Below, in pieces: positions 1 through 25,722 of a stretch of 64,000 nt of DNA. Source of the DNA: Membranipora membranacea (Eukaryota > Bryozoa > Gymnolaemata > Cheilostomatida > Membraniporidae). Where the stretch lies: NCBI GenBank assembly GCA_914767715.1, contig OU612072.1:9610001-9674000 (forward strand), read 5' to 3'. Each line of letters opens with the position of its first letter. Positions within the stretch are counted from its first letter, which is position 1. The notes under the pieces were generated by a model that was given only the letters and a program-made list of their open reading frames with translations, was not told where the DNA came from and made no database searches. The translations under genes and the position numbers were made by a program.

Positions 1-84
1 GCAGGAGGTTCAAGTGCTTGCACAACCTCTGAGGCTACAAAAACATGCTGCAGCAACACAGTTTTAAGCTGCTCATGTGGCTAA
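1..84 (+). CDS. Partial (3' end): last exon of a cysteine-rich peptide precursor, array copy 0
   Basis: The window opens inside the last exon of a member of the peptide family described at 4477-6187. The 27 visible codons read A-G-G-S-S-A-C, then a Thr-rich stretch, then T-C-C-S-N-T-V-L-S-C-S-C-G and a TAA stop at 82-84. The cysteine spacing C-x8-CC-x6-C-x-C is identical to the complete copies downstream. The anchor exon, the middle exon and the cleavage site lie before the window. The frame is open and every family-defining residue is present, so the copy is probably functional. The family is unrecognised and no function is claimed. Confidence 0.6.
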   Translation, partial: AGGSSACTTSEATKTCCSNTVLSCSCG

Positions 85-120
85 CCAAAATATGATAACC
101 TCAAAGACTCACGGCACACT

Positions 121-296
121 TCATAGGCGCTGCATACATACTGTGTACACGGCATGCACACTATATACACACCGCATAGACACCCCATATGCAACACATA
201 CATACAGCATACACTGCATACACACCGCAAACACGCCGCATACACACCGCATATATACCGCATACCCACCACATACACAACACATACATAAACCTT
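121..296. repeat. Imperfect short minisatellite, unit about 11 bp (CATACACACCG-like)
   Basis: This is a run of degenerate copies of CATACACACCG-type units (gcatacacacc, gcatatatacc, gcatacccacc and others). It begins about 40 bases after the stop codon of array copy 0. The open frames seen here on both strands are a consequence of the repeat and are not taken as genes. Confidence 0.7.
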
Positions 297-959
297 TCTA
301 CTTCTAAAAACTCGCATTTTTATTCTTGATTTTCTCCATAAAATAGTATATTTTCAAAACTTGCATTTGTTTTTCTTTATCTTTCTCCATAAAATAGTAA
401 ATTTCTTAATTGCGATAATCTTGTGTCAGTTGAGCAAAGGAGGTTAGAATTTCCTCATGCCGTACAGCTAAAACTTCTAATTTACAAAAGCCTAGATAAT
501 GAAATTAATAGCAACAGTTGTTTCTATCATGTATAATAGGACTTCACTAGTTCAGAGTCAATGATGTATAGATGGCCTATGTATGTAAGCTTATGTTTTG
601 ACAAATTGAAATGTATGGCCATTATATATTAGGAATATTTATGCATCATGTAGGTTTTGGTGATGGACCAAAGAAATATTTGCCATATCGTTGAACTATT
701 GAACTGTTGAACTTTCACATCAAGATCAGATTTGACTGTGATATACTCTTTCTTTGTACCACATGGAATGAAATACAATCAAATTTCAATTCTTGACCAA
801 TTTATTGTTCACTATGTAACAGTTTCCAGTGCCATTCTGTGGACAAGTGAGCCTCTCTACAACGTAGAACGGATGAGTTAAAATGGTTGTTAGTTGTGAA
901 GCATAGGTAAATGACCTGAATTGATATGTGCACATTAGCAAGGAGGTGACCGATGCTAG

Positions 960-1165
960 ATATACTGGAGGAGTATGAGGTAGCTCAGTTGGCTAGAGCG
1001 CCGGCCCTCTAATGCTCAATCGTTAGAGATCTTCGGTTGGAATATTGCTGCAGTCTACCCACCACCGGGGCTTAATTGACGCCCCAGGTGTGCTCCCACC
1101 TACCTGCAAACTGAGAGCAATTTGGAGTCGAATACGGCAACCGTGCCCTTAGGGCACTGTTATTT
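960..1165 (+). mobile_element. tRNA-derived SINE-like repeat, fullest of three copies
   Basis: A tRNA-like head begins near 975 with the A-box-like TAGCTCAGTTGG at about 981-992. A GGTTGGAAT-like stretch about 50 bases later could be a decayed B box. The tail (about 1088-1160: GTGTGCTC..ACCT..CTGCAAACTGAGAGCAA) recurs at 13160-13235 and 44070-44150. A pol III type head joined to a dispersed tail is the usual SINE layout. The ends are not sharply defined and no target-site duplication is clear. Confidence 0.5.
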
Positions 1166-3619
1166 CTCAGTCTTTGGACAGTGACAAACTTGCGATTTCA
1201 AACCCTTTAACCCCAGATGACTGTGCGAATAATGAGAATGATGAGCTTATGGTAATGGGGAAATTTGAGAAGTTGACTCTATGGGGAAGAATGGAAGTCC
1301 TGGTGACATACCCTTGAGCATCTATCATGATTGATTCTATTTTAAGCTGGATAGCCTGTAGTAGCATTTCATTATCAACCACCTTCCTAAGCGCTTAAAC
1401 TAGATTGACTCCCATTAATATTTGTACCAGGTGCATCCAGTGTTAGAGTAGCATCTTTCTGCTGGAAATCCTGTTTAGTTGACACTGACACTGGAGTATT
1501 TAGGGGTCATTATTATCATACTATATTTTTATTTTGAGTTGACTTACCCTATGTCACCTGATCTTTTAATAATGAATCATTGAGCAAAGGGGATGATCTA
1601 TCAGCCACCAACAGTTGGAAAGCCTGATCTGACATTTTTAATTGATGTATTTGTTATGACATTGATCTGGGCACACGAATTATTCTATTTTGGCAAAGTC
1701 TTTCCATAACAGGCCACCACAGGACAACTGCGTACACAATTTTCCACCACGTCCAGGTACAATAAAACACAAACACATATCTATATTATAATCCTTCAAA
1801 CAGGAAGCATTTTATTCTTACAACATTATGTCAAGCACCGGCAACTATTTGAGATGATGCATCGTTTAATCGATGTTTGAGAACTTTCACACTATGGAAG
1901 CCCATTTGACCAAGAATGATGATAAATATAGATTCCAATGACCTCACTTAGTGCGCTGTGTCACAATATCTCATTATAGACAGACAAATAAAATTAGCCA
2001 TGCATTCATTTATTTCCAGGTGCGTAACATGCACTCATACTAGACATTCTCAGTCATAATAGGGCATTTAAATATAACGCAATACTTACTCCAAATTCTG
2101 TTGATGACTTTGACTTTATGGTCTTTGGTTGCCATTATTAGATGAATTTGTGAACTCAGTTGAACAGGCTTGTGTCTGAAGTTGTCCCTCATTAAATTTG
2201 GAGCTGAACAGAGGAAACCTTGAATTAGTACCTATTTATATAATTTATCATCAGGGAGGTCATGAATGATATTGCTAATAGGTCAAAACAATATATTACT
2301 ACATACTACTTTGTATAGCAACCACTATATCTCACCTTGATATTGTAGGTTTGAAAACAGACAGGTCAATATGAGCCAAACCTAGAACTAATTATATAGA
2401 AGTTGGCTTCCTTTTTGACAGAGGAAGATCAAAAATTGATGGAAATAGTCCTAAAAACAGAGGTCTAAATGTTTATATACAACTATGTTATTGTCACTGT
2501 ATCGTAAAAGAGAAAACGACCTTCACATATTTCAACCCACTAATATTTTGACCACATTGCGGAAACAGTTTTTAAATTGAGCCATAATCCAAGTAGGCCT
2601 GCATTTATGAGTTTGATATCGCGCCAGAAAGGGAAGAACGACATGTACTGCTGACTTCATGAAACTAAATATCATACATTTCCTCAGATTTTTTTAGTTC
2701 AACAATATTGTTATTAGTATAAGAAGCGTTGGTGCTGATTTGGACAGTAGGCTCCAGCACCGAAATTAAGCCATGCTCGGGTCAAGTCATTTAGAGTATT
2801 CGACCACAGTTCTTCTATGCATGCATGTGGTTCTTTGTGAACAACTCGATAGGTAAACGCAAACACACAGAAGGGAGTCGATCTACTCCTATAAAATGGG
2901 TAGAAAACTCAATCAAGATCATTTCCTGGCAAAGATGTTATAGAATGGCTGCCAAGATATGAACTGGCAACGCTTGCGGGTATGCTGTATTGTAGCAGTA
3001 GCAGAGATAATTGAATTGCATGTTAATATACAGCACATAACTAGAACTGACAGCTCGACATGACAGAGTAGAACATACAATAAATAGTCTTTGGCATTGA
3101 CTCTACTTCACTCTCAGTATTTTTTTCTCAGCTCTCACTCAATAATTAAACACACAATTTGATCATGGAAATTGTTAGCATGATAATTGCTATGGTCTTA
3201 CATATTCCAACATTACTCGTTTTCCAACAAGCTGGTGAAATCTTGCTGGTCACTAGCCCCATGGGTGGCCAAGCTAGGCTCAGGTCAAGTTGTCACATCT
3301 CCAAATCATAATACCATAGGATCATAGGATATATATATAATAAATATGGCTCTTAGGCTGATGAATGATACCAAAGGTGTCAAAATATGTAAGGAATCTT
3401 CATCAATATCATTTCAATATTATATGATATCATTGAGAATAAAGAAACTATAGTGGATCAATTTGGAAGGTGTCAAAATAATAAGGCCTTGTCTTCCATC
3501 TGCAAGTTTTTGACTGAAGAAGACACCACTTCTTGTACGCTAGATGAATCTCCCAGTTCTCAGAGAAGTGATAATTGGAAAGTCAAAGAAAAAAGAGGGT
3601 ACAGCCTCAAGTTGCAACA
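1166..3619. other. Intergenic, no gene seen
   Basis: No coding stretch here resembles the flanking family or any gene I know. The open frames are short and have no supporting splice context. One stretch at 2752-2812 resembles 5S rRNA weakly and is reported under findings. Otherwise I see ordinary AT-rich DNA. Confidence 0.5.
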
Positions 3620-3750
3620 ATGGAGGATAAATCGGCTCCTAGTAACAGTGAGGTAGAAAATCTGAAGCTGCGCCTGACGTTTTACAAATGATCTACTATT
3701 CTATCGGGAATTATACTGTTCAACTGTCTAGGATTGATAACCTAAGATGA
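3620..3750 (+). pseudogene. Broken anchor exon (exon A) of the peptide-precursor family
   Basis: An ATG in the same context as the intact copies (gttgcaacaatg) is followed by M-E-D-K-S-A-P-S-N-S-E-V-E-N-L-K. The frame is then broken by TGA straight after F-Y-K and by TAA near I-T. The remains of the membrane segment (L-S-G-I-I-L-F-N) can still be read. No donor and no exon B or C belonging to it is visible before the next copy at 4477. Confidence 0.7.
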
Positions 3751-4476: not shown

Positions 4477-6187
4477 ATGAATGATAAATCAACGACAGCC
4501 AACAGTGAGGTAGAAAATCTTTATCAGCGCCTTCAGTTTTACAAACTATCTACTTTTATCTTGGGCCTTCTTCTGTTCAGTTTTCTAAGCTTGATAACAT
4601 GGCTCATAGTGACAGACCATCTTCATATTCAACTTCGATCTTTTGAGAAAGGTGATAAGAATACTCAAAAAGCTAAGGTGAGACTAGATATGATGCAGAA
4701 AAAGTTTTGAATTTGATTGATTGTGTTGCTGTTTGAAAGATAACCTGTCTAAAGGAAACAATAGCCGAACAAACAGCGATTATCTTTTGGAGGTGTTTAT
4801 TACAATATTATATATTGAAATGAATGATCTGTCATTCCTTTAAAATATTATTTCCAATTTTAAAAGAAACAAAGATAGGTAGATAGGTTTAGCTCTTTCA
4901 GGATAGACATGTGGCCATAGCTGTAGATATTCTGTACTACACCTCCAATCCACAATGAATCTGATTACTATAAACCAACTATGGCACTGTTTACCAGTTG
5001 TATGACCCATGTTTGTGAATAAAAGATACAATACATAGCCTGAAGGCCTTAGGCATTGAAAACAGCTTCATATTTATTCGGGCACAGGAACACAGCACGA
5101 AAGATCAAGTGAAGTTTTCACAGGAGTGGATGAAGAAAGGGAGAGGGGGAAGAAGGGGATGGCCTGACATGTCAGCAACAAAGTATGGGAAAATACCAAT
5201 AGCAAAAGGGTTAGTGACAAGTATAGGTACAGCATCTAGTCTGATACCAAGACCAAGTTTACCTACTACTAAGGTAAGTTATATTATATTTGCGTGCTAA
5301 ATATTTCCTTTCAAGAAAAAGCGATTCAAACGGACTCAAATCTAGTTCTTTACATTAGAGTTTTATTGTAATTAGTCATGTGTGGTCCCATCTCAGTCTA
5401 GCCAATAAAGGAGATTGGGTTATGCCTTGTTTGGATTTGATTGTCTTTTTGTGACATAACAACTGCAGGATGAATAAACCCTGGATATGGTTGCAATATT
5501 AAAAGATCCCCCCCCCCTCCTCCTCATATTGATTTGGTGGAATGAAAGAGCCAATAACAGGTCATATGGTACTTTCCTAAAATTAACATTTGGGCTTGTC
5601 TCTACCTGTTTGTTGAATAGGCCCACTGAAAACATATGATCTGATAGCGAAAATAGTAGAGCGCTTGCTTCGTAACTTTGAAAATGTCTGTTTGAACCTT
5701 AGATCTAAAGCATTATCTCACAATGATAAAAATGGCAGGCTATGTCAAAGTCAAATGTATGTTACTGTAAGTGCCATAATGACCTTACATTGGCTCCTAT
5801 CCCAAGCCAACCAAACAGTGCCAACACACTGGTTAGTCGCAGGTTCATTGAAAAAGATGTGAATCTTTAGTTAGTATTAACTCTCACAGCGAGGTAGGCT
5901 TTTCAGATCAAAGTGCCATAGAAAGACAGATTTGTGTGTCAAATCTGGTCAAGCATGGATTTCATTATGTTCAGGTTTGGCTCCACAAGAGCTTACATTC
6001 TAAACTTTTTCTTCTAATATTTCAGTTTACCTCTAAAGGAAATTGGGAAAAACGGAGCAAACGGCAAACTATAGTTGTACAAGGTGCTGGTGCAGGTGTA
6101 AGCGGAGGTTCAGGAGAAGCTTGTACAACCACGACAGCTGAACGAACATGCTGCGACAACACAGTCTTAAGCTGCTCATGTGTTTAA
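4477..6187 (+). CDS. Unrecognised membrane-anchored precursor of a secreted cysteine-rich peptide (array copy 1, reference copy)
   Basis: Three exons, 4477-4677, 5088-5273 and 6026-6187, join in phase 0 at GT-AG sites (donors GTGAGA and GTAAGT) to give 182 residues. The ATG at 4477 is chosen because its context (gcaacaATG) is shared with other copies. Exon A (1-67) has a short cytosolic N-terminus with N-S-E-V-E-N-L and one hydrophobic segment at about 25-46, read as a type II signal anchor. Exon B (68-129) is basic, with G-R-G-G-R-R-G. Exon C (130-182) has E-K-R-S-K-R, a furin-type site. The released part would begin with Gln, pass through Gly-rich sequence to G-G-S-G-E-A-C, and end with cysteines spaced C-x8-CC-x6-C-x-C. 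AATAAA lies at 6311. I infer a membrane precursor that sheds an extracellular peptide. The peptide's role (defence, signal or venom-like) is unknown. Confidence 0.68.
5470..5845. mobile_element. Foldback MITE-like element in the copy 1 intron (family also at 21265 and 23977)
   Basis: The left part (about 5525-5585) reads GGTGGAAT..AAGAGCCAATAACAGGTCATATGGTACTTTC. The right part (about 5775-5840) is an approximate reverse complement, ending with GTGCCAACACACTGGTTAG. Both arms match the arms of the elements at 21265-21605 and 23977-24251. A C-run lies near 5511. The boundaries here are uncertain. Confidence 0.45.
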
Positions 6188-7228: not shown

Positions 7229-7470
7229 CCTTTCAAGACCAGGAAATTGACATACTTTCATGGATATATGTGTCATGGCTAGGACTTCGACAAGATCAGA
7301 AAATTGATATTAATTAGCTATATATTGTGTCACATTGAAGCTAGGTCAGGAAACTCATTAAAAGGTTGTCAATGCATCAAGAAATATGTGGGATATGAAG
7401 GAGGTCAGTTGCAGAAAAGTCTCATTTTAATCTTCAAGGCGAAACAAGGATGCAGCATGAATATTGGACA

Positions 7471-9304
7471 ATGGAGCATAAGATGACTGCTGGTAACAGT
7501 GAGGTAGAAAATCTGAAGCAACGCATAAAGACTTATAGAGCCTCTACTATTATATTGGCAATACTACTTTTCAGCGTTCTGAGCGTGATGACTTGGCTCC
7601 AGGTTTCAAGAGAACCTCGATCATTTGATTGTGATAAGAGGTTACGACAATTGGAGGTAAGGCTCACATCTGAGGTAGGGACATAGGTAGATGCTGTGGA
7701 ATCACAGGTGCAAAATGTTGAAAGAACAAATCAAAGCAACAGTTACTTATCTTTCTGCTGTCAATTTAACGCTTGTGCATTTGGTTGAAAGACTATGGAT
7801 GGTTAAAAGAAAGCCAATAGTGGATCAGTTACCAAATTGACATTAGTTTTTTTTCTCATTTTGCTTTTCATGCTAAAAGATAGAAATATGAGTCTATCTT
7901 TTTCAGAATAGATCATCATTACACGACACCTTAAGTTTTTTTGGCTGCAGTTCCTTTTTCAAAACAACAACCCTTTGGTGGATTCCATGACTATGAACCA
8001 CTAGAGCATTATAAGAAGCGACACATTGGTATTGGCTTAGCACTCCGTGTGGCTATATATTTATATGAATTTATATGTCCATATTATCCATATCGACAAA
8101 ACCTGCAACAACGAAAACAACGTCATTTTACAATCTCCAATTTGGGCACAGGAACAGATAGTAGAAGATCAAGGATCAAGATCCCTTGAGTGGAAAATGA
8201 GCAAGATTTGGGTTAGAAGGGGATACATTCTAAAACCAAAGTACAACAAAGTACCATCAGCAATAATTTTACTAACACCTACTGCTGCTACATCAAAGAC
8301 AAAGTCAAATTTACACTCATCCAAGGTAAATTGTGAGTTTGTGTGCTAAATATTGTTTTGTATGCTGAAAACAGCTCTAATGTACTTACACTATGTATTT
8401 ACGTATGAGATTTGGACCAACCAGATGTGCTCATTGCAGAGTTTCCAACGATGAGAATTTGGCGCAGATTTGGATGCACTTTGATGTCAACTTGGTACAT
8501 GTGCGTCAACAGGATTTACCAAGGGGTGCTCATTTTAGCTGTGGAGTTGTTAGTGGCATGTGTAAGCGGGGAGGGTGCGGGAGGGGCGCCCAAGCGCCCT
8601 CCTACCGACGGAATTTTTTTGAAATTCGAGACCCAAAAAGAGACATTCTGGTACATACCAGCCAACTTTTATGGATGAGCAACACCAAGCATGATACCAA
8701 AAGTATTTAACAGCAACAGCCTCTTGCCCGGGCCCCGATTGAAAGTTCTAGCGATAAAGAAAACATTGAGTTCCAATTGTTAAAAAAAAATCTTTTAAAA
8801 GCTCCCAAGGGGTGCTCACTTGAGCACCCTGAGCACCCCTTCTGACGCCCATGACTTGGTAATAAAACAGCGTAAGGATGAACAAACCCAGGGAACAGGT
8901 AGCCTAGAACTTTTTATCTGAAGCAAGATGTGGTGCCCCCCCCCCCCCCCAACTCCCCCTGAGAGTGGTAAATTCTTTGCTTCGACAAAATTCTCACAGG
9001 ACAGTACGGTAAGCATATCGAGTACCGAGAAAAAGATGAAACCACGCTATTTTCTGGGCAGCATTATGAGATTCCAAAGCATTGATTTCCCTGTGTTTGT
9101 TTGGGCCCAACAGACGGCAATTATTTAGAATTACTGTTTCTCTTATTTCAGTTAACTACTAGAAATTACTCCAGAACAAGGAACAAACGTCAAACCCTAT
9201 CCGGTGGCTTTGGGTCCAGTGGAGGCTCAGGAAATGCTTGCTCAACCATATCTGCCTCAAGAACATGCTGCGACAACACAGCCATAAGCTGCACTTGTGT
9301 GTAA
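7471..9304 (+). CDS. Unrecognised membrane-anchored precursor of a secreted cysteine-rich peptide (array copy 2)
   Basis: Exons 7471-7656, 8152-8325 and 9152-9304 join in phase 0 to give 170 residues. The ATG at 7471 (M-E-H-K-M-T-A-G-N-S-E-V-E-N-L) aligns with the start of copy 1. An upstream in-frame ATG at 7450 is less likely. The anchor lies at about residues 24-45 (S-T-I-I-L-A-I-L-L-F-S-V-L-S-V-M-T-W-L). The region after it differs from the other copies: the D-H-L-H-I-x-L-R stretch is replaced by S-R-E-P-R-S-F-D-C. Exon B keeps I-W-V-R-R-G-Y and K-P-K-Y. Exon C has R-N-K-R followed by Gln, then G-G-S-G-N-A-C and the C-x8-CC-x6-C-x-C pattern, ending T-C-V. All frames are open. Confidence 0.66.
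8808..8842. repeat. Small hairpin, AAGGGGTGCTCA / TGAGCACCCCTT type
   Basis: AAGGGGTGCTCA is followed shortly by GAGCACCCTGAGCACCCCTT, a compact inverted repeat in the second intron of copy 2. A related CAAGGGGTGCTCA stands at about 8518-8530, so this may be a remnant of a small repeat. Confidence 0.4.
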
Positions 9305-9529: not shown

Positions 9530-9720
9530 GGATATCCAAATTCTCATCGTAATCATATCTCCGCTTTCCTTTTCCTTATCCTGTTTTATAAAAAGATGAG
9601 AGAAACGACTCTGTTTAAATGGCTGCCCAGCCAGCTCAAGATTCTATCATATCAACTACAACTATTACTATGGTATGCAGTATCCATCGCTTTAATACTT
9701 ATGAACTGATTTTAAACAGT
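9530..9720 (+). promoter_or_regulatory. Conserved 5' flanking module of the peptide family (decayed copy)
   Basis: This block carries ATTCTCATCG..CTTTCCTTTTCCTTATCC and then TATGGTATGCAGTATCCATCGCTTTAATACTTATGAA..GATTTTAAA. The same order of motifs is found at 13395-13560 and 13690-13850, upstream of copy 3. Conservation ahead of exon A suggests promoter or 5' UTR sequence. Its function is inferred only from position and repetition. Confidence 0.45.
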
Positions 9721-9859
9721 GGTGTGTATCAGCGTCTGAGTAAAGAAGAGTATTTTAAGTTATAATAACTAGTATGAATAAATTCCGGTTATAAGCCTAT
9801 TGGACAGCATACTACCAGCTGCAAATTGAGACCCATTTGATTCTCAAAACAAAAATTTA

Positions 9860-10045
9860 ATGAAGGATAGACCAACTGCTTCTAACACTAAGCTTGAATA
9901 TCTTAAGCAGTGCCTAACAGTTTTATATTTCTATCTCATATATAATATTGACAATGCGTCTGTTCAGACCCCCTTCACAAAGAACTAGGCCTATAATCAT
10001 TTGAGAAGTATTATACAAATAACAGAAAGATGAGGTAAGGTTGCC
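9860..10045 (+). pseudogene. Decayed anchor exon (exon A), close relative of copy 3
   Basis: ATG at 9860 starts M-K-D-R-P-T-A-S-N-T-K-L-E-Y-L-K-Q-C-L, recognisably the N-S-E-x-E-N-L-x-Q-C-L start of copy 3. The membrane segment is lost to frameshifts and stops. The 3' edge (gatgaggtaaggttgcctttagaggtaggg, about 10030-10058) still matches the copy 3 donor region. No exon B or C follows. Confidence 0.6.
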
Positions 10046-10855
10046 TTTAGAGGTAGGGATACAGGGGGAGATTTATTTAAATAATATAGTTGCAGAGTGA
10101 CTGTGACTGTAACTGTAAGCCAAATTTGAGCTCAAGCTATCTAACCATATATTATACCAAACGTCCCTCCAAGCATGAGTAATCCATGTGATCTGCTTAC
10201 AGCGTGAGCTTGTGATGTGTTAGGTTGAGACAAAGTGCAATTATTAGGGCTGGAACGGGTGCCATTAATTAGGACTTGGTTGGGTTTTTTGGTTAATCTC
10301 TCGGGGCTAAAGCTCACCCAGGTAGGTCAAAGCAAGTACTGGTCGAGCATCGAGTTTATCTAATGATGCGGACATGGGTAGGGTACATGAGAGACAGCAC
10401 TACTGAACCTGTATTTGCTGCTATCTGGTAGAATCATTTTATATTCAGCAAAGGATACAGAAAGTACTTCAGTTCAAGCAAAGAGTCGTATTCAGCTCCA
10501 AACTTTTTTTCTTTCTTTAAACTGTATTGGCAAAACTTTCATTTGGTGAGAATGTTTTATAAAGTAAAGGAAAATAAGGAAAGAAAAAGAAATTTTAATC
10601 AATGTGAAGAAAAAGGTAATCAGAAAAATTATATCTGAATGATAAAAGCTTGTTTATTGAACTTAAATTAATTTGTATGTTGTTAGAAGTTGAAACAGGA
10701 ATGACTGAAAAATTTAACCACCAGACTTTAAAGAAAATAACTATAGTCAATACCAAATTATTTTGGATAGGATTTTAATATGAAATGTGTCATCACAACT
10801 AATCTGGCATTGGTTTCCCTTACTTTACAAGGAGAATGAAAAGGATAATGTAGTT

Positions 10856-11210
10856 AGGATAGGATAGGACAGGGCAGGACAGGGCAGGGCAGGGCAGGGC
10901 AGGGCAGGGCAGGGCAGGGCAGGGCAGGGCAGGGCAGGGCAGGGCAGGGCAGGGCAGGGCAGGGCAGGGCAGGGCAGGGCAGGGCAGGGCAGGGCAGGGC
11001 AGGGCAGGGCAGGGCAGGGCAGGGCAGGGCAGGGCAGGGCAGGGCAGGGCAGGGCAGGGCAGGACAGGACAGGACAGGACAGGACAGGACAGGACAGCAC
11101 AGCACAGCACAGCACAGCACAGCACAGCACAGCACAGCACAGCACAGCACAGCACAGCACAGCACAGCACAGCACAGGATAGGATAGGATAGGATAGCAT
11201 AGGATAGATA
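10856..11210. repeat. Segmented pentanucleotide satellite (AGGGC / AGGAC / AGCAC / AGGAT)
   Basis: Perfect 5-bp units are arranged in blocks by variant: AGGAT and a mixed edge (10856-10880), AGGGC x36 (10881-11060), AGGAC x7 (11061-11095), AGCAC x16 (11096-11175), then AGGAT x4 with AGCAT, AGGAT and AGATA to about 11210. The minus strand is open in several frames (Cys/Pro/Ala/Leu repeats) only because the 5-bp unit lacks stop triplets. It is not a gene. Confidence 0.95.
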
Positions 11211-11309
11211 AAAATGTTGCAGTGTTGTACCGTTATAAAATGATACTCAGAAAAATGTTTTATTTAAAAATTTGATGCATTGTGCTCTAAAACAGTTCTT
11301 ACGAATATC

Positions 11310-12560
11310 AACTCTACATTTCAAGGCACGGTAGCGCCCTGAAAGTAGCTTACCTGGCTCAAAAAGAGGGTCATTCTAGGGCACTTATTGTGAAAGCAAC
11401 GTTCATAGATATCAGATATGTTGGAGAATCTGCATCCTGATAGATAACCTGCTGTGGAGATCACATTGTCAATAGATTTTTCACATGAATTAAACATATG
11501 ACCGAAAACAGTGCATAGATAGTAAATAAAAACGCACTCAATGAACGTGACATAGCATCTCAATCTGATTGGTTTAGGCACTTTGAGGAATGATAGATGT
11601 TTCATAATAAAAAGCCGTTTTCTAGCTTTCCTAACGACAGACTGGGTATGATCTTTTAAAAGTGAGCTTTGATTCAATAGAAGTGCCAAGGTATACAAAT
11701 TGATCGACTGGTTGAACCTCAGTACCCTTAATGATGATGTTATCACAGCTTGGATTATCACGTTTGTTACTAATAATCATTTCCTTTGTTTTTGTGGCAT
11801 TTAATATGAGGTCATTGGCACAAAACCAGTTAGTAAGGAATTCCGCAGCTGAGTCCAGTGTTGATGGTGTCTTAGGTGTGCAGAGCTCTAATAGGATAGT
11901 GTCATCTGCATATTTGATCAGGTGGTAGTTACCATATGGTGGTAAATGCATATTCTGGACATAATATGTCCAGAATATGCCTTTACCACCTATGTACGCT
12001 GCTTGTTTGTTGATTTTACGTGTGCTTTTAACACCATTAGCCCCAATACGCTGATAGACCAACTCGCAAATTCCCCCCTACACGGCAACATCATCAACCT
12101 TATATACAACTTCCTGATAGATAGGAGACAAAAAGTGGAAGTTAAAGGTCAATTCTATGCTGTCAAAAAAACATCCACTGGCAGTCCACAGGGGTGCGTC
12201 TGGAGCCCACTGCTATTTTCCATATATATATTACGAGTTGGTCTATCAGCGTATTGGGGCTAATGGTGTTAAAAGCACACGTAAAATCAACAAACAAGCA
12301 GCGTACATAGTTTTTAGAGTTGGAGTCAAGAAGTTTAGTAACTATATCAAGTAACATCGCTAGTGCATCCTCTGTAGACCTGCGCTCTCTGTAGGCGAAC
12401 TGGGACTCGTCTGTCATACAGCCAGATATAATAGGTTTGGTGACCCTCTCAAATGTTTTAGCCACGATAGACATAAGGGCCACTGGTCGATAATCCTTGG
12501 CTACGTTGGCGTTTCCTCAGCAAGCGTATAAACTTGGGTGGCATAGAGACTAGATTTAGC
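11310..12560 (-). mobile_element. Non-LTR retrotransposon fragment (CR1/Jockey-type reverse transcriptase), rearranged
   Basis: Minus-strand reading gives K-D-Y-R-P-V-A-L-M-S-I-V-A-K (about 12450-12510), then F-A-Y-R-E-R-R-S-T-E-D-A and V-D-F-T-C-A-F-N-T-I. Further on come K-Y-A-D-D-T-I-L-L-E (about 11900), V-Y-L-G-T-S-I, and a C-terminal region with R-K-A-R-K-R-L-F-I-M-K to about 11321. The piece between, with S-T-G-S-P-Q-G-C, is on the plus strand (12067-12235), so the middle of the reverse transcriptase is inverted. A frameshift near 11640-11700 and another near 12500 also break the frame. The element is 5'-truncated and cannot make an intact protein. These motifs are typical of LINE reverse transcriptases of the CR1/L2/Rex type. 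Confidence 0.85.
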
Positions 12561-13947: not shown

Positions 13948-15067
13948 ATGAAGATTGAAATTGCAGCAAAGGTGGATAAATTAGCAGCTGCCAACAGTGA
14001 GATGGAAAATCTCAGGCAGTGTCTGCAGTTTTATAGAGCAGTTACGCTTGTATTAACAATTTTTCTGCTCAGCTATTTCAGCTTGACAATTTGGCTCAAC
14101 AACACAGAAGATATTCATAGAGAAGTTCGAGTCTCCGAAGATCGGGATACGAAAACACATGACACTAAGGTGAGGCTGCCTTTAGGAGTAGAACCATGGT
14201 TGGGGGTTGTTACAAATAGAGATGCAAAAGTATGTTTGGTTGCATTGCCTGAACCCGAACTAAACTCTAGTCGAAGGAACGGTGAAACAATTTCCACTTA
14301 TTGTCAGTTAGTTTTTCATAAAGGGTACGATGTTGAGACTACATGTATCAGGAAGGAAATCGCAACAGTATATTTTCCTAAAGAGTGATTATTATGACTA
14401 ATGATTTCATCGCAGTGTTAGCTACGTAATGTAGTGAGCGTACGACTGCACAACACACAGGTCTTATACCAAAAACAAAGCCCAGTTTTGAAGCCTTCTC
14501 TAGTTCAACATCATAAAAACATCATGGCTGGCCTCAGCAGCATGATGCCACCCCTGTGTGTTGATCAGCATCTCATTCCTTCACTCTAGCCCTCAGTGCA
14601 TTTCGGATCTAGTTCGATTTTGGAGAAAACGTGCAGACCAAATTTTTGTTTCAGGGTAAACATTTCCTCAGATACGGGTTAGACCTTGTACATCAGTTTT
14701 ATAGAACAGCAGGATGATTACAGCCAGGAGACAAGTAGCCTGAGACACTGTAACTGGTGGTGTAATGGAGTGGGTTACCCTTGCCATATGGTTGCCTCCT
14801 CTTAGAATTTGCAGTTTACACATGGTACATATTATTAGATCTTTCAATCTCTGTGTTGAGTTTGGGCTCAACAAGACACGATTTTAAAATTTTTTATTTA
14901 TTTTATTTCAGTTAGGCCTAACCTACACAAAGAACTTCGTAAAGCGGAGCACACGAGATTCGATCAAAACCAGAACCTTAGCTGGAGGCTCGGCGAGTGC
15001 CTGCACAACCACAGAGGTGATTGGAACATGCTGTGACGGCGGAGTTGTGAGATGCTCGTGCGAATAG
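13948..15067 (+). CDS. Unrecognised membrane-anchored cysteine-rich peptide precursor lacking the middle exon (array copy 3)
   Basis: Exon A 13948-14169 and exon C 14912-15067 join in phase 0 to give 125 residues. The ancestral ATG has become GTG here (gcaaaGGTGgataaa), so the next ATG upstream, at 13948, is taken. The N-S-E-M-E-N-L motif and the anchor (L-V-L-T-I-F-L-L-S-Y-F-S-L-T-I-W-L) are intact. No convincing exon B lies in the intron; a weak trace may be at 14459-14515. Because every exon in the family is phase 0 on both sides, skipping B keeps the frame. Exon C has V-K-R-S-T-R, a weaker R-x-x-R site, then L-A-G-G-S-A-S-A-C and C-x8-CC-x6-C-x-C. It ends C-S-C-E. AATAAA is at about 15098. 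The frame past 14169 stays open to 14388, so an intron-retained product is possible. Confidence 0.55.
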
Positions 15068-15490: not shown

Positions 15491-16195
15491 TCACAGAGTA
15501 AGGATATACAGAGGGGACAGTTCAATGATAGTTATAGTGCCTGGGGTTTTTGATTCACTGGGGGAAAATTGTGCACAGCTGGATGCCAAAAACTCATTAT
15601 CTCTATATGTTATAATGGCATTTTTCTTGCAGACATCCCTACCTTTGATGGGCCATAATGCATTCTGTATTTATCCTAAAGACTGATTTCCAACTTTGCT
15701 GGAATGTCCAAGCTTCAAGCTATACACCATATTGTTGTCATTTTTTGCTAGGATTCATAGGCTAAGAGTAATCCAGGTTTTTGAAATGAGTTTTGTCATA
15801 TAGATTTACATGTGACAATTGATAGACGGCTGGTCATCAAAATTAGGAAATGTCCGTGCATTGACCTAAGCCCTATGTAAATTTATATGATAAAACTCAT
15901 TTTAAAAACCTGGATTACTCATAGCCTATGTATCCTAGCAAAAAATGACAACAATATGGTGTATAGCTCGAAGATTGGACATTTCAGAAAAGTTAGAAAT
16001 TAGTCTTTAGGATAAATACAGAATGAATTATGACCTATCAAAGGTGGCTATGTCTGCATGACAAAACTCCACTGTAACTTATATATATTCTGAAATTGGC
16101 AGGTGGCCAGATTGATGAATTTCCCCCAGTGGATAAAAACCGCAGGCACTATAACGATCATTGAAGTGTCCCCTCTGCTTATCCTTACTCTGTGA
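15491..16195. mobile_element. Long inverted-repeat (foldback) element
   Basis: Two arms of about 320 bases are near reverse complements: left about 15491-15812, right about 15874-16195, with a spacer of about 60 bases. The outer ends are TCACAGAGTAAGGATA and TATCCTTACTCTGTGA-type. Inner landmarks pair along the whole length (for example CACCATATTGTTGTCATTTTTTG on the left and CAAAAAATGACAACAATATGGTG on the right). There is no transposase frame. A transcript across it would form a long double-stranded hairpin. Confidence 0.85.
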
Positions 16196-17200: not shown

Positions 17201-18192
17201 ATGTTTGCCACTCTCTGTTTCTTCTTCTCTTGTTTCATTTTATTCACGCAATTTATGATACCATGCTTTCATCATCCTACTCACGATATAGTATTTAACA
17301 CCCTACTACTTAAATCTTATTATTCAATTCATCTTGAACTTCGATCCTTGGTCGGTTGTGAAACAAGTACACGTAAAGCTAAGGTGAGACTGGATTGATT
17401 AAAACGTTTCCTGGTTGATGGTCTTCATGGTGTGGAACGGGAACTATATATAGTAAGATTTATAATGTGATTGAAAGACAGAAAAACATTCAAAATAATG
17501 AGCCTAGTTCTCATTTTCCAGATCCAGTGGCGCATTGAATACATCATGATGTTTTTGTCTCAAAAGATAAGAATTTTGGCACAGGTTCACAGAACAGAAG
17601 TTCCAGTTAAGTTATCTCAAGAGCAAATAAAGAGAGGAAAATGGGGAAGGAGGGGTTCGCTTCACATGACAAAACCCAAGTACAGGAAAGGGCTATCAGC
17701 AGAAGAATCAATTGGAAGTGCTAGTACTACATCCTTGCTGACTTCAGCTCCGCCTTCCTCCCAGGTAAGTTATGTTTCTGCTGATGAGATAAATTGTCCT
17801 TGGAGAATCTCAAGCAACTCAAACATACAAACACTTTTATACGTGATTTGCAGGATACACATATAAGACTCAGCCCAGACAGTCATTAGGCATCAGGAAT
17901 GGGTTAAAATATTTTTTGAAGTTTCTTCATCCATCCACTTGAATCCGGAGCAGATTACTCCCCATTCAAAGTATCGAAACATAGTGAATAAAGCAGGTCT
18001 TTGAGTTTAGAGTTTCCTGATCAAAATGAATTTTATATTGGTAAGTCTGCCTTCTTTCAGTTAACTACAACAAACCAGGTGACAACACGGAGCAAAAGGG
18101 GTAAGCGCCAAGAAGGAAGCTCAGTTGGAGGTTCAGGGGGTGCTTGCCAAACCACAAGGGTCATAGGAATATGCTGCGACAAACAAGTCTAA
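17201..18192 (+). pseudogene. Decaying array copy 4: altered anchor exon and frameshifted cysteine peptide
   Basis: Exons 17201-17383, 17585-17764 and 18061-18192 still join in frame (164 codons incl. stop positions aside). Exon A lacks the N-S-E-V-E-N-L start. It begins with an unrelated hydrophobic run (M-F-A-T-L-C-F-F-F-S-C-F-I-L-F) and rejoins the family only at I-H-L-E-L-R-S-L. Exon B is one of the best preserved (K-R-G-K-W-G-R-R-G-S-L-H-M and K-P-K-Y-R-K-G). Exon C keeps R-S-K-R-G-K-R, G-G-S-G-G-A-C and I-C-C-D. A one-base deletion after the V codon (compared with copy 5) then brings a TAA stop and removes the last cysteines. It may still be transcribed. I call it a pseudogene, though a three-cysteine product cannot be excluded. 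Confidence 0.6.
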
Positions 18193-18335
18193 CAGTCTCC
18201 TGTGTGTAACTAAATATCACTTAGGAGGAGAGGACTAAAAGACTTCATCACTCCTTGTATGAGTTATCCAGCTGTAATAGACTACACCGTTGACTTTTTG
18301 TTTGTTTGAGGCGTAATAAACCATGACAAGACCAC

Positions 18336-18890
18336 ATATAGCGGAGATATAGCGGAGATATAGCGGAGATACAGCGGAGATATAGCGGAGATGTAGCGGA
18401 GATGTAGCGGAGATGTAGCGGAGATGTAGCGGAGATGTAGCGGAGATGTAGCGGAGATGTAGCGGAGATGTAGCGGAGATGTAGCGGAGATGTAGCGGAG
18501 ATGTAGCGGAGATGTAGCGGAGATGTAGCGGAGATGTAGCGGAGATGTAGCGGAGATATAGCGGAGATATAGCGGAGATATAGAGGAGATATAGCGGAGA
18601 TATAGCGGAGATATAGCGGAGATATAGCGGAGATATAGCGGAGATATAGCGGAGATATAGCGGAGATACAGCGGAGATATAGCGAAGATATAGCGGAGAT
18701 ACAGCGGAGATATAGCGGAGATATAGCGGAGATATAGCGGAGATATAGCGGAGATACAGCGGAGATATAGCGGAGATATAGCGGAGATATAGCGGAGATA
18801 TAGCGGAGATATAGCGGAGATATAGCGGAGATATAGCGGAGATATAGCGGAGATATAGCGGAGATACAGCGGAGATATAGCGGAGATACA
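18336..18890. repeat. 11-bp minisatellite, about 50 units of (A/G)(T/C)AGCGGAGAT
   Basis: Near-perfect tandem 11-mers ATAGCGGAGAT lie just 3' of array copy 4. A block of 15 consecutive units (about 18391-18555) carries the variant GTAGCGGAGAT, and ACAGCGGAGAT units are scattered elsewhere. On the minus strand all three frames stay open for over 200 codons with the same 11-residue period (Y-I-S-A-I-S-P-L-Y-L-R), because 11 is not a multiple of 3. No start context, splice site or domain supports a real protein. Confidence 0.95.
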
Positions 18891-19860: not shown

Positions 19861-19932
19861 ATCAGGTGCCTTTAAAATCTAGCTGAGATCCAACATTTGT
19901 AATAGTGTTGGATCTCAGCTAGGCACCTGATT
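19861..19932. repeat. Near-perfect hairpin (17-bp arms, extendable)
   Basis: CTAGCTGAGATCCAACA (19879-19895), a 10-base loop, and its exact complement (19906-19922) form the core. Outside a 7-base bulge the pairing continues through ATCAGGTGCCT and GGCACCTGAT. It could be a tiny MITE or a small-RNA precursor. Confidence 0.7.
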
Positions 19933-20513
19933 GGTCAACCTCAACATATGTCATCACTAATGGTGGATGGCAGGGGAAGAAGATACTCCTTACATTTTGA
20001 GAGCTCATATAACACCATTCAAAGCTACTGGCTAGATGTTTTGATGCCACAACTCTCTATTTAAATTTTTGACTGGTGGCTATGCTGGGCAAAGCCCAGC
20101 TGTGGCAGAAGTCTGGAATAGAAATAGAACTATAAAATTAACAAGATCAGATTGGTAATTTGAAAAATGCTCAAATAATTGGGCCTGGTTTTAATTCTCT
20201 GAGTGTCTAAGTTGACGCAACTGCATTTGAAGTTTTGATAAGAAATATTTCATTGATCAGTAAGAGTTGATCTTGATTCCAACATTCAAACTATAAGCCA
20301 TAGAATAGAAGTTCTAACATTTTAAATTTGATGAATGACTTCAAAAGTGTTTCCTATGTGTACATAAGTGTGAGTCGAGAGAAGGGATTCATATAGCAAC
20401 TAGAATGGACATAATTATGAAATATTTGAAAATTATTGGAAATTGTCAGTGACAGGAGATATGAATCATTAAAAACTACAGGCAAAGATAGGGTGCAGTT
20501 CAATGGCTAAACA

Positions 20514-20673
20514 ATGAAGAACAGCTCAGCTGCAGCTAATAGTGAGGTGGAGAGCCTGAAACGTCGCCTGCAGTTTTACAAAACATCTACATTGGTATTA
20601 TCTATTCTACTCTTCAGCTGGCTAGCCATGATAACTTTCCAATTATTTTCACATATTATGTGAAAATAATTGG
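20514..20673 (+). pseudogene. Truncated duplicate of the copy 5 anchor exon, ending in a perfect palindrome
   Basis: From 20514 the sequence is nearly identical to the true exon A of copy 5 that starts 234 bases later (M-K-N-S-S-A-A-A-N-S-E-V-E-S-L). It breaks off at I-T-F (20638). A 35-base palindrome follows at once (20639-20673: CCAATTATTTTCACATA, one base, and its complement), and then the 5' flank begins again. The frame stops inside the palindrome, so this piece cannot splice to exon B. Confidence 0.8.
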
Positions 20674-20747
20674 AAATTGTCAGTGACAGGAGATATGAAT
20701 CATCAAAAACTACAGGCAAAGAGAGGGTGTAGTGCAATGGCTAAACA

Positions 20748-22696
20748 ATGAAAAACAGCTCAGCTGCAGCTAATAGTGAGGTGGAGAGCCTGAAACGTCG
20801 CCTGCAGTTTTACAAAACATCTACATTGGTATTATCTATTCTACTCTTCAGCTGGCTAGCCATGATAACTTGGATTATAGACACAGACCACCTTCATATT
20901 GAACTTCGATCCTTGGAGGGTTGTGAAACGAATATACCTAAAGCTACGGTAAGACCAGATTCAATCAAACAACTCTTGGTTGATGGACTATATCATTTTG
21001 AACAACTGTCAATTATTAAAAGAAAGAAGGTGAATTAAACTGTTTCACTACATGTATGAGATCACTCACAGGTTCAGTGACTTTAAGTCTTTTATTATGA
21101 CCACACTCCTACTAAGTGACCTCCAAGGTTGATCAAATGACCTCGGACTACTAATGCGGTGAAAGGACTTCCGCATCACCATCGAAATGGAGATTTGTTG
21201 CAATTTTGTAGGCAGACAATGGAAAACTTTTAGGGCAGACAATGGAAAACTTTTAGGGCAGACATGTTAGCCAATGTCTGGGCTTTGACTTGAGGGTGGG
21301 GAGAAGAAGAGCCTATGCCAGGTCATATGGTATTTTCAGGAAAGTATGTTGGGCCTTGACCGTTAAATAGGATATTGTATAAGATGAAAATAATATGTCA
21401 AGATGTGGTTTCGAAACCACAAGTCACCAATCTTAATCCAGGACAAGTGCTGTTAGATCACAGATCATTTAACCTATCAAAGCCGGCCCAAAAAGTTAGG
21501 TAATGTCAAGGTTGAAGGTACTTTGCTGAAAGTACATTATGACCTGGCATCGGCTCTTCATCTCCTCACCCCCAACCAGATCCAACACATTGGCTAAGAT
21601 AGATAGTAAGATTTACAATTTTACGACATGAATAGGAAGGGTTAATTCAATAGATATTGAGCCTAGTTACAATTCTTCAGATCCAACGACACATTGAATA
21701 CATCATGATGTTTTAATCTAAAGAGTATTATTTAATACAGGGTCACAGAACAGAAGTTCCAGTTAAGTTATCTGCGGAGCGATTAAAGAGAAAGAAATGG
21801 GGTAGGAGCGGTTCCCTTCACATGGTAAAACCCGAGTACAGGAAAGCGCTATCAGCAGAAGAATTAATAAGAGTTGCTACTACTATGCTGACTTCAGCTC
21901 CGCCTTCCACCCAAGTAAGATATTTTCTTGCTGATGAGATAAATTGTCCTTAAAAATCTCAAGCTTTGCAAACATACACACATTTTCAACATGATTTGCG
22001 GAACAAGGCTGCATATGTTATAGGGACTTATTTCAGCCCAGACAAATACTAGGTATCAAGGCTTCGACTTCACTTCCATTCTAGGAGTTATCAAATTATG
22101 GAAACAGCATTGGTTCAACTTTCGGATAATGGTCACTCATTGGCTTTGGAGAAGCATATTGGGTTCATTGCATCAGCATGGATGAGTAGATAGCTTCCAA
22201 GACTGAGAAAAGGGAGGCCTGGATTCAAATCTTTTGAAGTTTCTTCATCATTGGAATCATTAGCATCCATTTCAATCGGGAGCAGAAAACTCATTTGATG
22301 CCCACCCCCCCTCACCCCATTCGAAGCATCAAAACATCGTGAATAAAGCAGGTCATATAACTTAAGTGAAACTCATATGGAACGTTAGGGTTTAATAGAT
22401 CCAAATAACTTTCATAATGTTAAGTGTGTGATTTCTCTGGTCAAGAATATTTGCATTCCCAGTACAAATCTAGTTAAGTATAGGTTCTACTTGCTCCGTT
22501 TTTCTCAAGTTTGCGCTTTGCCTTGTTTCAGCTATCTACAACAAACCATGTGATAACACAGAGCAAAAGAAGTAAGCGCGTCGTTACTCGCAAAGTCGGA
22601 GGATCAGCAGATGCTTGCACAACCACAAGGGTCTTAGGAACATGCTGCGACAACACAGTCCTAACATCCTCCTGTGTGAAATTGAGTATCACTTAG
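20748..22696 (+). CDS. Unrecognised membrane-anchored cysteine-rich peptide precursor (array copy 5, altered C-terminus)
   Basis: Exons 20748-20948, 21741-21914 and 22532-22696 join in phase 0 (donors GTAAGA and GTAAGA) to give 179 residues. The anchor lies at about 25-46 (S-T-L-V-L-S-I-L-L-F-S-W-L-A-M-I-T-W), followed by D-H-L-H-I-E-L-R-S-L-E-G-C-E. Exon B has R-K-K-W-G-R-S-G-S-L-H-M and is closest to that of copy 4. Exon C has the double basic run Q-S-K-R-S-K-R, then V-G-G-S-A-D-A-C and G-T-C-C-D-N-T-V-L. The usual S-C-S-C-V-stop is replaced by T-S-S-C-V-K-L-S-I-T: one cysteine is lost and the former stop codon is read through, adding five residues. The whole frame is open. It is either a diverged functional copy or an early stage of decay. 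Confidence 0.6.
21265..21605. mobile_element. Foldback MITE-like element in the copy 5 first intron
   Basis: Left arm about 21265-21365 (GTTAGCCAATGTCTGGG..GAAGAGCCTATGCCAGGTCATATGGTATTTTCAG). Right arm about 21505-21605 is its approximate reverse complement, ending CCAACACATTGGCTAAG. Same family as 5470-5845 and 23977-24251. Confidence 0.65.
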
Positions 22697-24732
22697 GACA
22701 AAGGGACTCTAAGGCGTCATCACTTCATGCACCACTCACCACTCACCACGCACCACGCACCACTGTATTGGGATGTTTTCTTGAACTGCAAATTTAATTA
22801 GCCTATTCATGAATTATCGAATTATTATCTCCTGTGTGGTTTTGCAGCAATGTAAATTGTCTTATGTCTTATCAGTATCAATTAAAAATTTGACAAATTG
22901 TTTAAATTTGTGACATCAGGTCAGGTCGCCAGCAAAACCATGAGGCCAAATTTGTTGTGACCTCACTCAGATTGCTGCAGAATCCATATTATCATTACCT
23001 TAGTCATATTGTCATTATTACCTTAGAGAAGCAAGTCAAAGCAGGACTCTCTCGTTATTTTACTCTCTGCACATTTAATCAGAAAAATGTAGCCAGAGTT
23101 TTATTTACAAAGTTTATCGGCTATCAATTCATCTTCACTACAATACTGACTTACGTGGGAGATGTATTATATATTATATTCAAGTACTGACTTTTCAAGA
23201 GGACATAAACCTGATGGATCAACTAGTATGTATGCCTGACACACTTATTAGATCGAGAAGTGACCTAACCAGTCACCATTTGGTACAATAAATAAAATGA
23301 TTCGTTGCCAAACTTCTCTATCCGATACAACCACGCACCACTCAATGTATGAATTATCCAGCTGTGGTGAACTTACGACCTAGTCTTATTTGTTGGTTGG
23401 CATATAAATCGTGACAAAACACTTTGCACAGCTTCTGCGAGGAGCTGAATATGATGACATAACGACATAGTGTTTTCTCATATTTATCATTGTTTTGCAG
23501 TCCACGGCCAGGTGATAATTGAATACGCAATTTTTTTTTCTAGAAGAATTAGGATCCTGGATAAAAAATGGGAAATTATTGATTATGGAAGTTTTACCCT
23601 ATTATGATAAGTTTTTTTATATTTCCGAAGACTTGATCATTCTTAATTTCTTTGTTTAAAAAAAGCGGGAAACGGCTCATTTTCTCATGCATGAATAATA
23701 AAATAGAAAATCATGTACTTAAATATTTCATAAATGAATTTGGAAAACCTATAATTTCTTTTGTTTTCGTTTTAAATGTTTTGTAATCAGGACAACACCA
23801 AGAAACAGACTGAACGCCTCGATTTTTCAATTCAATATTATTGCATGCAAAGGCCTGAATATTTGACATGGCACCCTGAGCACGGCTCCGCCCTGTATAC
23901 AATAATCTATCAAGCGATTACTCTGCCATTATCTTATCAAACATGTGGGCGTTCTCTAGAAGCATGGCCATATGAAGGGCATGCTCTAGCCAATGGATTG
24001 GCGTTGAGTGATTGGTGGGGAGAAAAGCCAATGCCAGGTCATATGGACTTTCAGGAATGAAACGTTGACCTTGCCATTGCCTAACCTATAATAAATGTAA
24101 GATATTGCAAAAGATGACCAGATGTTCTCTAAGCAGGCACTCTATCAATTGCCAAGGTCGAAGGCCAAGTTTCCTGATACCTGACCTGGTATTGGCTCTT
24201 CTTCGCCCAACCCACCAATTGGAGCCAACACATTGGCTAGGCATGCTCTAGTGTTTCGATACCATCTATGGAGGATCTACCGAAGTATTTATATAAGGGA
24301 ATGTCTGCACACGCAGCAGGCTTTCTGCAGGAAAAACTCCCTGACGGTATTAGCTGAGATCAAGATGTTTGATTTGTTCAAGCCTCTTATTGACAACAGT
24401 ATTACTTCTCAGACCTCAAAACTTTCATAATGACTAAGAAGCCCCTATTATAATCAGTGGTTTGATCTGTACCAAACACATCTTTGATGTGTATGGATAT
24501 GAAAGTATGTAAGCAATCCTCATCATTACCCTATCAATATATATCATATCATTGTCCTTAAAACACCACAATAGGAAAAATTGAAAAAATGTCCAAGTAA
24601 TGAGGCGTTTGTCTTTCATATCTGTGGCTGCGAATGACGCCACACGTTGTATGGTACTGGAAACTGGCGCAATTGCGGTGTAGTGATAATTGGAAACTCA
24701 ACACAAAAAGAGGGACAGCCGTAAGTTACAAC
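22697..24732. other. Intergenic 3' flank of copy 5
   Basis: No gene is supported. The flank holds a short CACCACGCAC-type run (22729-22765), the segment shared with the flank of copy 4 (about 23340-23930) and the foldback element at 23977-24251. Confidence 0.5.
23977..24251. mobile_element. Foldback MITE-like element with flanking direct repeats
   Basis: Arms GCCAATGG..TTGGTGGG..AGAAAAGCCAATGCCAGGTCA..TCAGGAA (left) and the reverse complement of the right arm agree along about 100 bases. GGCATGCTCTA stands directly outside both ends (about 23978-23988 and 24239-24250), as a target-site duplication would. This is the best-bounded member of the family. Confidence 0.7.
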
Positions 24733-25722
24733 AATGAAGAATAAATTGGCTGAAAATCTGAAGTAGCGCCTGAAGTTTTACGGAGCATGTACTATTATAT
24801 TGAGAATTCTACTGTTCTGCTTGCTAGGCATGATAAAATGGCTTTGAGCCACAGGACATCTTCAGATTGAACTTTGACTCTGTACTACGACCTAATACTA
24901 CCACTATGTCTGACTCAAGATTTAGAGGGGTGGAGGTAGCACTTAATTTTGGCTAGCCTATGCGCGAAAAAGCAACCTTTGCTTCCTGCAGATACCTTAC
25001 TCCGCTAGGTTATACACTTTCGAGGACCATCAGCATGTGTGGCCGGCAGTTATAGCCCTGTTCTTAAACAAGACACACTTTCCCCTCTTGGCACTATAAA
25101 ACGCTCAGACACAGAACTAACTGCCGTAAGCATTGTTACCATTATATAGCCGCCAAAGCCCTCAACAGTGCATTATTCTAGTCTTTTGTATTTTATACTT
25201 TTATTCTCATTTTACAATTTGTAGTTTTATACACTTCTTAATTTGTGCATTTTGAGACAGAGCTCAAATCTTTTAGACAGCACGGCTGAAACGTTTTGTT
25301 ATTCATGCAAATGAATCACTAAAGGAACATACATACATACATTTAGTTTAACAGGATTAGCAAATGCAGTGACAACAAGCCTGAGATAGTCAATCTGCAG
25401 TTGAGATGAGGTGGGAACCGGAGAAAGCCCAACTCAATTGAGTCAAAAAAGTTGGGAATTTTTAATACTGAGAGACTCTCAAGGTATTTCAAAGAAAAGT
25501 CCTGTTCTTTTCTTTCAGGTTCAATACATTACTTTTCTAAGTTAAGGCTCCTCGGGCAATGGAATTTTTAAAATTACAACTTGCGTTGTTACAGTTTTTC
25601 ACTCCAGACAATGTGATAACACCAGTTAAGTGCAGCCAAGGAACTGGATGAGGAGCTGGAGGATTTGGAGACACTTGTACAACCACAACCGCAACATGAG
25701 CATGCATTGTCTTAAGCGGCTC
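24733..25722 (+). pseudogene. Relic of array copy 6 (exon A and exon C traces)
   Basis: Exon A trace 24733-24890 begins M-K-N-K-L-A-E-N-L-K and is then stopped by TAG. R-L-K-F-Y-G-A-C-T-I-I-L and L-L-G-M-I-K-W-L remain before further stops. The exon C trace at about 25600-25722 keeps GGAGGATTTGGAGACACTTGTACAACCACAACCGCAACATGA, that is G-G-F-G-D-T-C-T-T-T-T-A-T and a stop. The CC motif is deleted. No exon B was found. The whole copy is dead. Confidence 0.65.
24930..25345 (+). mobile_element. Possible retroelement 3' end with a short CATA tail
   Basis: A sequence of different composition interrupts relic copy 6 between its exon traces. It ends with CGGCTGAAACG..CATGCAAATGAATCACTAAAGGAACATACATACATACATT. 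A short tandem tail after an unrelated stretch suggests a 3' retroelement end, but no coding part is present, so this is tentative. Confidence 0.25.

Follow-up and report, generated by a model that had tools for sequence, protein, structure and literature searches.

The window analyzed here is a 64,000-nucleotide (64-kb) stretch from the bryozoan Membranipora membranacea (assembly GCA_914767715.1, contig OU612072.1, positions 9,610,001 to 9,674,000 of the forward strand), and its first 25.7 kb hold a tandem array of related genes predicted to encode membrane-anchored precursors of short cysteine-containing peptides. Searches with tblastn and BLASTN place nine related loci between 1 and 25.7 kb, all on the + strand, confirming the tandem, single-strand family proposed in a first-pass annotation of this DNA. 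Three loci carry full models with exons A, B and C (g2, 4477-6187; g3, 7471-9304; g6, 20748-22696), one joins an exon A to an exon C (g4, 13948-15067), one is a decaying copy (g5, 17.3-18.2 kb), and one, at the window edge, consists of exon C only (c1, 1-84). The others are dead pieces (fA0 at 3.6 kb, fA2 at 9.9 kb and c7 at 24.7-25.7 kb), which together with g5 bring the decayed loci to four of nine. The same classes of copy, including the three full ones, had been listed in the first-pass annotation. The features of the array are as follows.

1-84, +: c1, 3' part of exon C at the window edge, with five Cys and a Cys-Gly-stop end
3382-3742, +: fA0, ~240 bp of c7-like upstream sequence and a dead exon A with an in-frame stop (3620-3742)
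4477-4677, +: g2 exon A, N-terminal tail and predicted transmembrane anchor
5088-5273, +: g2 exon B, basic stalk
6026-6187, +: g2 exon C, putative RSKR site, Cys peptide, stop
7471-7656, +: g3 exon A
8152-8325, +: g3 exon B, divergent
9152-9304, +: g3 exon C, putative RNKR site, Cys peptide, stop
9650-10060, +: fA2, putative dead exon A (from ~9860) with g4-like upstream region, DNA similarity only
13948-14169, +: g4 exon A, with its ATG upstream of the position used in the other copies
14912-15067, +: g4 exon C, putative R-S-T-R site and Cys peptide, acceptor AG at 14910-14911
17327-17382, +: g5 exon A remnant and its donor
17585-17764, +: g5 exon B, open
18061-18210, +: g5 exon C, early stop within the Cys peptide, decaying copy
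20514-20639, +: g6, partial second exon A in tandem, within a 234-bp repeat
20748-20948, +: g6 exon A
21741-21914, +: g6 exon B
22532-22696, +: g6 exon C, putative RSKR site, four of five Cys, five extra C-terminal residues, stop
24502-24880, +: c7, upstream region followed by a dead exon A that begins at 24734 and has in-frame stops
25637-25705, +: c7, dead exon C

For the array search, 12 exon peptides served as tblastn queries against the window at an expect value (E) of <=0.05. Matches are confined to the + strand of the first 25.7 kb, with E values between copies ranging from 3e-24 to 0.003, and a decoy made of the reversed window sequence gives a single match (E 0.032). From 26 to 64 kb, tblastn at E<=0.05 finds no family locus, and BLASTN of 1-26 kb against the remainder of the window gives no match at E<=1e-6. 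A looser search (E<=10) returns weak matches across the window, including beyond 26 kb (best there E 0.36), and none of those outside the array passes E 0.05 in the stricter tblastn.

Exon structure and divergence of the copies

Junctions follow GT-AG in phase 0 wherever they were modeled, and exon length is divisible by three in all 12 open-copy exons (A of g2, g3, g4 and g6; B of g2, g3, g5 and g6; C of g2, g3, g4 and g6). Exon C of g4 comprises 156 bases, its start being placed by eye at the acceptor AG, and tblastn with the other B exons as queries finds no exon B between A and C of this copy. Two assignments are the weakest. The first is exon B of g3, which none of the other B exons recovers by tblastn at E<=0.05; it is linked to them by position, phase and the acceptor GGGCACAG, common with g2, and a shuffle test against the three other B exons gives p<=0.0006. 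The second is fA2, which has no tblastn match and is assigned as a putative member through an alignment and through upstream DNA that resembles the upstream region of g4. The models suggest that g6 may have two competing starts owing to a 234-bp repeat (20423-20871; 96-97% identical) that consists of upstream sequence and a truncated second exon A start.

Between the older copies, BLASTN similarity lies mostly at exons and exon edges, with three exceptions: the sequence upstream of g4 resembles sequence that precedes g3 and sequence that separates g3 from fA2; fA0 and c7 share ~240 bp upstream of exon A (69% over 363 bp, against 24502-24836); and short repeats recur in introns (5546-5576). In the younger pair, g5 and g6, the introns are still alike (81% over 357 bp, including exon B). 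An AATAAA or ATTAAA word occurs <=215 bp from the end of the C exon at five of seven copies (g2, g3, g4, g5 and g6; not c1 and c7), but these words carry no weight because they are common in AT-rich DNA. Upstream regions were inspected for a common promoter motif by eye only, and none is claimed.

Predicted precursors and constraint on their exons

The predicted proteins are 182 (g2), 170 (g3), 179 (g6) and 125 (g4) residues long, and each of the four has one strong hydrophobic peak (mean Kyte-Doolittle 2.10-2.58 over 19 residues). The hydrophobic stretch starts at residue 26-32 and is preceded by 25-31 residues, with a conserved NSE(V/M)E(N/S)L motif in the N-terminal tail. N-in signal anchors are expected to carry more positive charge on the N-side than on the C-side of the helix; all four proteins have this bias, g3 by one charge only, and it would fit an N-in (type II) anchor. 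Up to the putative cleavage site, the lumenal part would carry a net charge of +14 in g2, +13 in g3 and +8 in g6, and of +2 in g4, where exon B is missing. By eye, this part contains 0, 1, 1 and 0 Cys in g2, g3, g6 and g4, respectively.

An R-x-x-R motif stands directly before the peptide in all five C exons that reach that far, and in four of them it takes the form R-x-K-R (RSKR in g2 and g6, RNKR in g3, RGKR overlapping an RSKR in g5); g4 has RSTR. The order of anchor, basic region, R-x-K-R and Cys peptide described in the first-pass annotation holds as a layout, except that g4 departs from it both in its site and in the absence of exon B. The predicted mature peptides of g2, g3, g6 and g4 have 40, 37, 38 and 36 residues and net charges of -2, 0, +2 and -1. 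They begin with a Gly/Ser-rich lead, continue with a Cys core and are overall Thr/Ser-rich and near neutral. The core, C-x8-CC-x6-C-x-C, is kept in four of the five properly stopped C ends (c1, g2, g3 and g4). Of the four open copies whose exon C is complete, two (g2 and g3; not g4 and g6) have Gln at the predicted new N terminus, where it could become pyroglutamate. The Cys-Gly end of c1 is a possible amidation signal.

Nei-Gojobori ratios of nonsynonymous to synonymous divergence (dN/dS) are 0.31-0.56 for exon A (six pairs), 0.54-0.99 for exon B (six pairs) and 0.19-0.81 for exon C (10 pairs), and are rough, with silent sites often far diverged and a protein-guided alignment that lowers apparent amino-acid change. 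Uncorrected silent differences amount to 0.46-0.57 in A and 0.39-0.73 in C, and dN exceeds dS in none of the 10 exon C pairs. The neutral null used to assess silent-site excess holds transitions and transversions at their observed counts, and non-overlapping pairs were combined by Fisher's method in three pairings. The combined p values are 0.0027, 0.029 and 0.0032 for exon A, and 0.022, 0.019 and 0.025 for exon C; taken singly, three of six pairs fall below 0.05 for each of these exons. This null gives larger p values than one without transition bias in five of six exon A pairs. Four exon C pairs that involve c1, the edge piece, were left out of the transition-preserving test; under the null without transition bias their p values are 0.26, 0.39, 0.02 and 0.43. 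As a control, two dead exon A pieces show no silent excess (proportions of synonymous and nonsynonymous differences, ps 0.07 and pn 0.23; p 0.98), in a small comparison using 33 of 35 codons. In the combined tests, exons A and C thus appear to be under constraint, with mixed results in single pairs. Mean pairwise identity is 0.60 in the Cys core, 0.56 in the cytosolic tail, 0.50 in the transmembrane segment, 0.40 in exon B, 0.35 in the pro part of C, 0.35 in the linker and 0.31 in the stalk. The best-kept parts are the anchor tail and the Cys core, and the region between them may serve as a spacer.

Interpretation and relation to known systems

We lean toward reading the array as tandem genes for membrane-anchored precursors of furin-released Cys effector or ligand peptides, similar to BRICHOS precursors but without a detectable BRICHOS domain. 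This probable reading draws on the gene models, junction phases, the constraint on exons A and C, hydropathy, the cleavage site and Cys spacing, and it is from such sequence features that we infer splicing, expression, topology, cleavage and disulfides. The anchor would insert N-in as a signal anchor, leaving a short cytosolic tail and, on the lumenal side, a stalk that is basic in copies with an exon B. The Cys core would then fold in the endoplasmic reticulum, and a furin-like convertase would cut late in the secretory pathway, freeing a small disulfide peptide. Five Cys, as in four of the five C ends, would be expected to form two intrachain bonds, with either one free thiol or an interchain bond that yields dimers. 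The biological role of the peptide is a guess, the likeliest being that of an effector or ligand acting outside the cell, either between host and microbes or between cells; its near-neutral charge argues against a classical membrane-lytic peptide. As for exon B, the basic middle exon of the first-pass annotation and an alternative active part, it has no detectable constraint and is missing from g4.

Several observations weigh against the favored reading. Firstly, none of the six exon B pairs falls below 0.05 (combined Fisher p 0.33-0.57), and the single pairs that stay above this level are g2-g4 (0.12), g3-g4 (0.18) and g4-g6 (0.07) for exon A, and g3-g4 (0.11), g3-g6 (0.39) and g4-g6 (0.18) for exon C, all in tests that use four sequences per exon. 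Secondly, the R-x-x-R motif alone is not specific, because it occurs once more elsewhere in each of the four proteins (RGGR in g2, REPR in g3, REVR in g4 and RLKR in exon B of g6); the site of g4 has only the minimal form, R-x-T-R, and the RSKR of g6 lies three residues past the column of the other sites in the exon C alignment. Finally, g6 has Ser at the fourth Cys position and hence one Cys fewer, and AlphaFold gives no usable model of exon C (mean predicted local distance difference test score, pLDDT, 44).

Sequence searches of Pfam, NCBIfam and PDB give no credible match for the family, in keeping with the first-pass annotation, which had recognized no named family in it. Library matches, all under the curated cut-offs where such exist, were treated as chance: Pox_LP_H2 (E 0.024), TSC22 (0.086) and RMF (0.14); Pox_LP_H2 (0.065) and DUF2721 (0.29) in the Pfam scan; ribosome modulation factor (0.036) and MecC (0.11); ribosomal eL28 (0.13-0.17, three sequences) and an acetylcholine receptor (3.8); and Hcp1 (2.2). 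One further library search returned nothing at E<=10, and Rfam has no match in the window. Among viral contigs, 94 stretches fit a pattern and 0 were confirmed, and among bacterial and archaeal contigs 33 fit and 0 were confirmed; a viral or bacterial origin was rejected on account of the lack of a confirmed contig match and the presence of introns. Literature searches by family peptide words and by precursor architecture did not find the family. We call the family undescribed only in this sense, namely that it has no credible Pfam, NCBIfam or PDB-sequence match and was not found in the literature searched.

The closest design of a described kind appears to be that of annelid BRICHOS precursors. 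Bri2 and chondromodulin are BRICHOS-type precursors with a transmembrane anchor, and the BRICHOS domain has a conserved Cys pair. Like BRICHOS precursors, the proteins predicted here have a short N-terminal piece, a transmembrane helix, a lumenal region, a dibasic furin-like site and a short C-terminal peptide. An annelid transcriptome study reports precursors anchored in the membrane that have a C-terminal peptide behind a dibasic site, and gives the order N-terminal piece, transmembrane segment, pro-domain and mature peptide for HfBRI-20, -23, -25, -28 and -54, the last with a Thr-rich part containing one Cys (PMC10745061). In the same study, BRICHOS antimicrobial peptides are mostly cationic, with HfBRI-75 and -91 as exceptions (PMC10745061). 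In the present family, a Pfam scan finds no ~100-residue BRICHOS match at E<=1, a result that covers spliced g2, g3 and g6, not g4, and that a very divergent domain could escape. Membership appears to fail because there is no BRICHOS match, because 0, 1, 1 and 0 lumenal Cys (g2, g3, g6 and g4) make no pair, and because the mature peptides, with net charges of -2 to +2, are non-cationic, unlike most BRICHOS antimicrobial peptides.

Other systems share parts of the design. The TNF-superfamily ligands EDA and APRIL have a type II anchor and release their C-terminal ligand by furin, and the bryozoan precursors resemble them in their putative type II anchor and in the predicted furin-type release of the C-terminal part, but have no TNF domain and a C-terminal part of 36-40 residues. 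MACIT collagens (XIII, XXIII and XXV) are type II, furin-shed and have conserved C-terminal Cys (PMC4678570). A putative type II layout, a furin-type site and C-terminal Cys recur here, in proteins of only 125-182 residues that, unlike those collagens, have no Gly-X-Y tracts by eye and no Pfam collagen match. Sea-urchin strongylocins and centrocins have a predicted cleaved signal peptide and are cationic, with 23-29% positively charged residues; EeStrongylocin 2 has six Cys, and one light chain is apparently blocked by pyroglutamate (PMC4805251). The likeness consists of short Cys-containing peptides released from precursors, as predicted here, and of a pyroglutamate end that g2 and g3 could share, whereas the present proteins have 25-31 residues before the hydrophobic stretch and a non-cationic mature peptide.

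Secreted innate-defense peptides would be a narrower form of the favored reading, in which the Cys peptide, or else the basic stalk, acts on microbes by binding or killing them, while the birth and death of copies reflects an arms race. We entertain this tentatively, given the mixture of open and dead copies in the array, the C-terminal Cys peptide after a furin-type site, the net charge of the lumenal part in g2, g3 and g6 (+8 to +14), and an order of parts common to the five annelid precursors, themselves predicted, in the study cited above (PMC10745061). The mature peptides, from -2 in g2 to +2 in g6, nevertheless differ from typical, cationic defense peptides and contrast with the 23-29% positive residues given for the sea-urchin peptides (PMC4805251). 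In addition, no constraint is detected on the basic exon B, which g4 lacks, and dN never exceeds dS in exon C. For these reasons the defense role put forward in the first-pass annotation is plausible but conjectural; nothing was found in favor of its suggested venom role, and its interpretation as a whole is partly supported.

A shed signaling ligand or recognition molecule, with a cytosolic tail used for sorting or reverse signaling, would be another narrower form of the favored reading, and a somewhat less likely one. The tail is among the best-conserved parts, the mature peptides are Thr/Ser-rich and near neutral, and exons A and C show a silent excess, but decay of four of nine loci is less usual for a fixed ligand. 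It is similarly doubtful that an annotation or description of the family already exists for related animals: the comparison covered Pfam, NCBIfam and PDB sequences, which leaves room for this, whereas those databases gave no credible match and the family peptide words are absent from the literature searched. A largely dying family, with functionless open copies that are either recent pseudogenes or relics of low expression, is improbable. In its favor, full models exist at only three of nine loci, four loci are decayed, exon B is apparently unconstrained, and significance is missing from half of the single pairs in A and C. Against it, g2, g3, g4 and g6 have kept their reading frames open, their splice sites canonical and their exon lengths in multiples of three despite their silent differences, and the combined silent excess holds in A and C.

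A bolder extension of the favored reading, to which we give little credence, is an unnamed animal peptide family with a precursor design of its own: an anchor, no recognizable chaperone-type pro-domain and a five-Cys C-x8-CC-x6-C-x-C peptide, with cross-gene splicing possibly yielding mixed precursors. Because all modeled exon boundaries are in phase 0, an exon A could be spliced to the B or C of any neighboring copy, or B could be skipped as in g4. If expressed, the array would represent a compact, testable secreted-peptide family, gained and lost by tandem duplication, in which a membrane anchor stands in for the cleaved signal peptide. Its exon A and C alignments have the specificity needed to search for the family elsewhere among animals, and the small size of the peptides allows synthesis and assay.

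Other elements in the window

Several elements lie among the copies. At 11634-12516, on the - strand, reverse-transcriptase fragments, one an RVT_1 match that passes the cut-off (E 4e-8) and another that falls short of it (E 0.0017), accompany an inverted repeat (89 nt, 94%), and the region is a broken retroelement within the array. Between g4 and g5, nested inverted repeats at 15491-16195 (191-nt arms, 90%; 61-nt arms, 92%) resemble a hairpin or an element of the miniature inverted-repeat transposable element (MITE) type. Simple arrays of 5-bp units over ~340 bp (10866-11207) and of an 11-bp unit repeated ~50 times (18336-18888) also stand between copies, where they possibly aid unequal exchange. 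A stretch at 955-1100, GAGGTAGCTCAGTTGGCTAGAGCGC, in which ARAGORN found no tRNA, looks to us like a tRNA-derived short interspersed nuclear element (SINE).

Beyond the array, an open frame at 40932-41288 contains a His-rich loop and has only a weak Pfam match to CbtA (E 0.023, below the cut-off); it resembles a zinc transporter of the ZIP9 type. Farther along, a ~7 kb block is present in tandem duplicate (45587-52925 and 56112-63241; 92% over 4973 bp and 85% over 2029 bp). On the - strand it has weak RING-finger and beta-propeller (PQQ_2) matches, all below the Pfam cut-offs, which suggest two TRIM-like genes.

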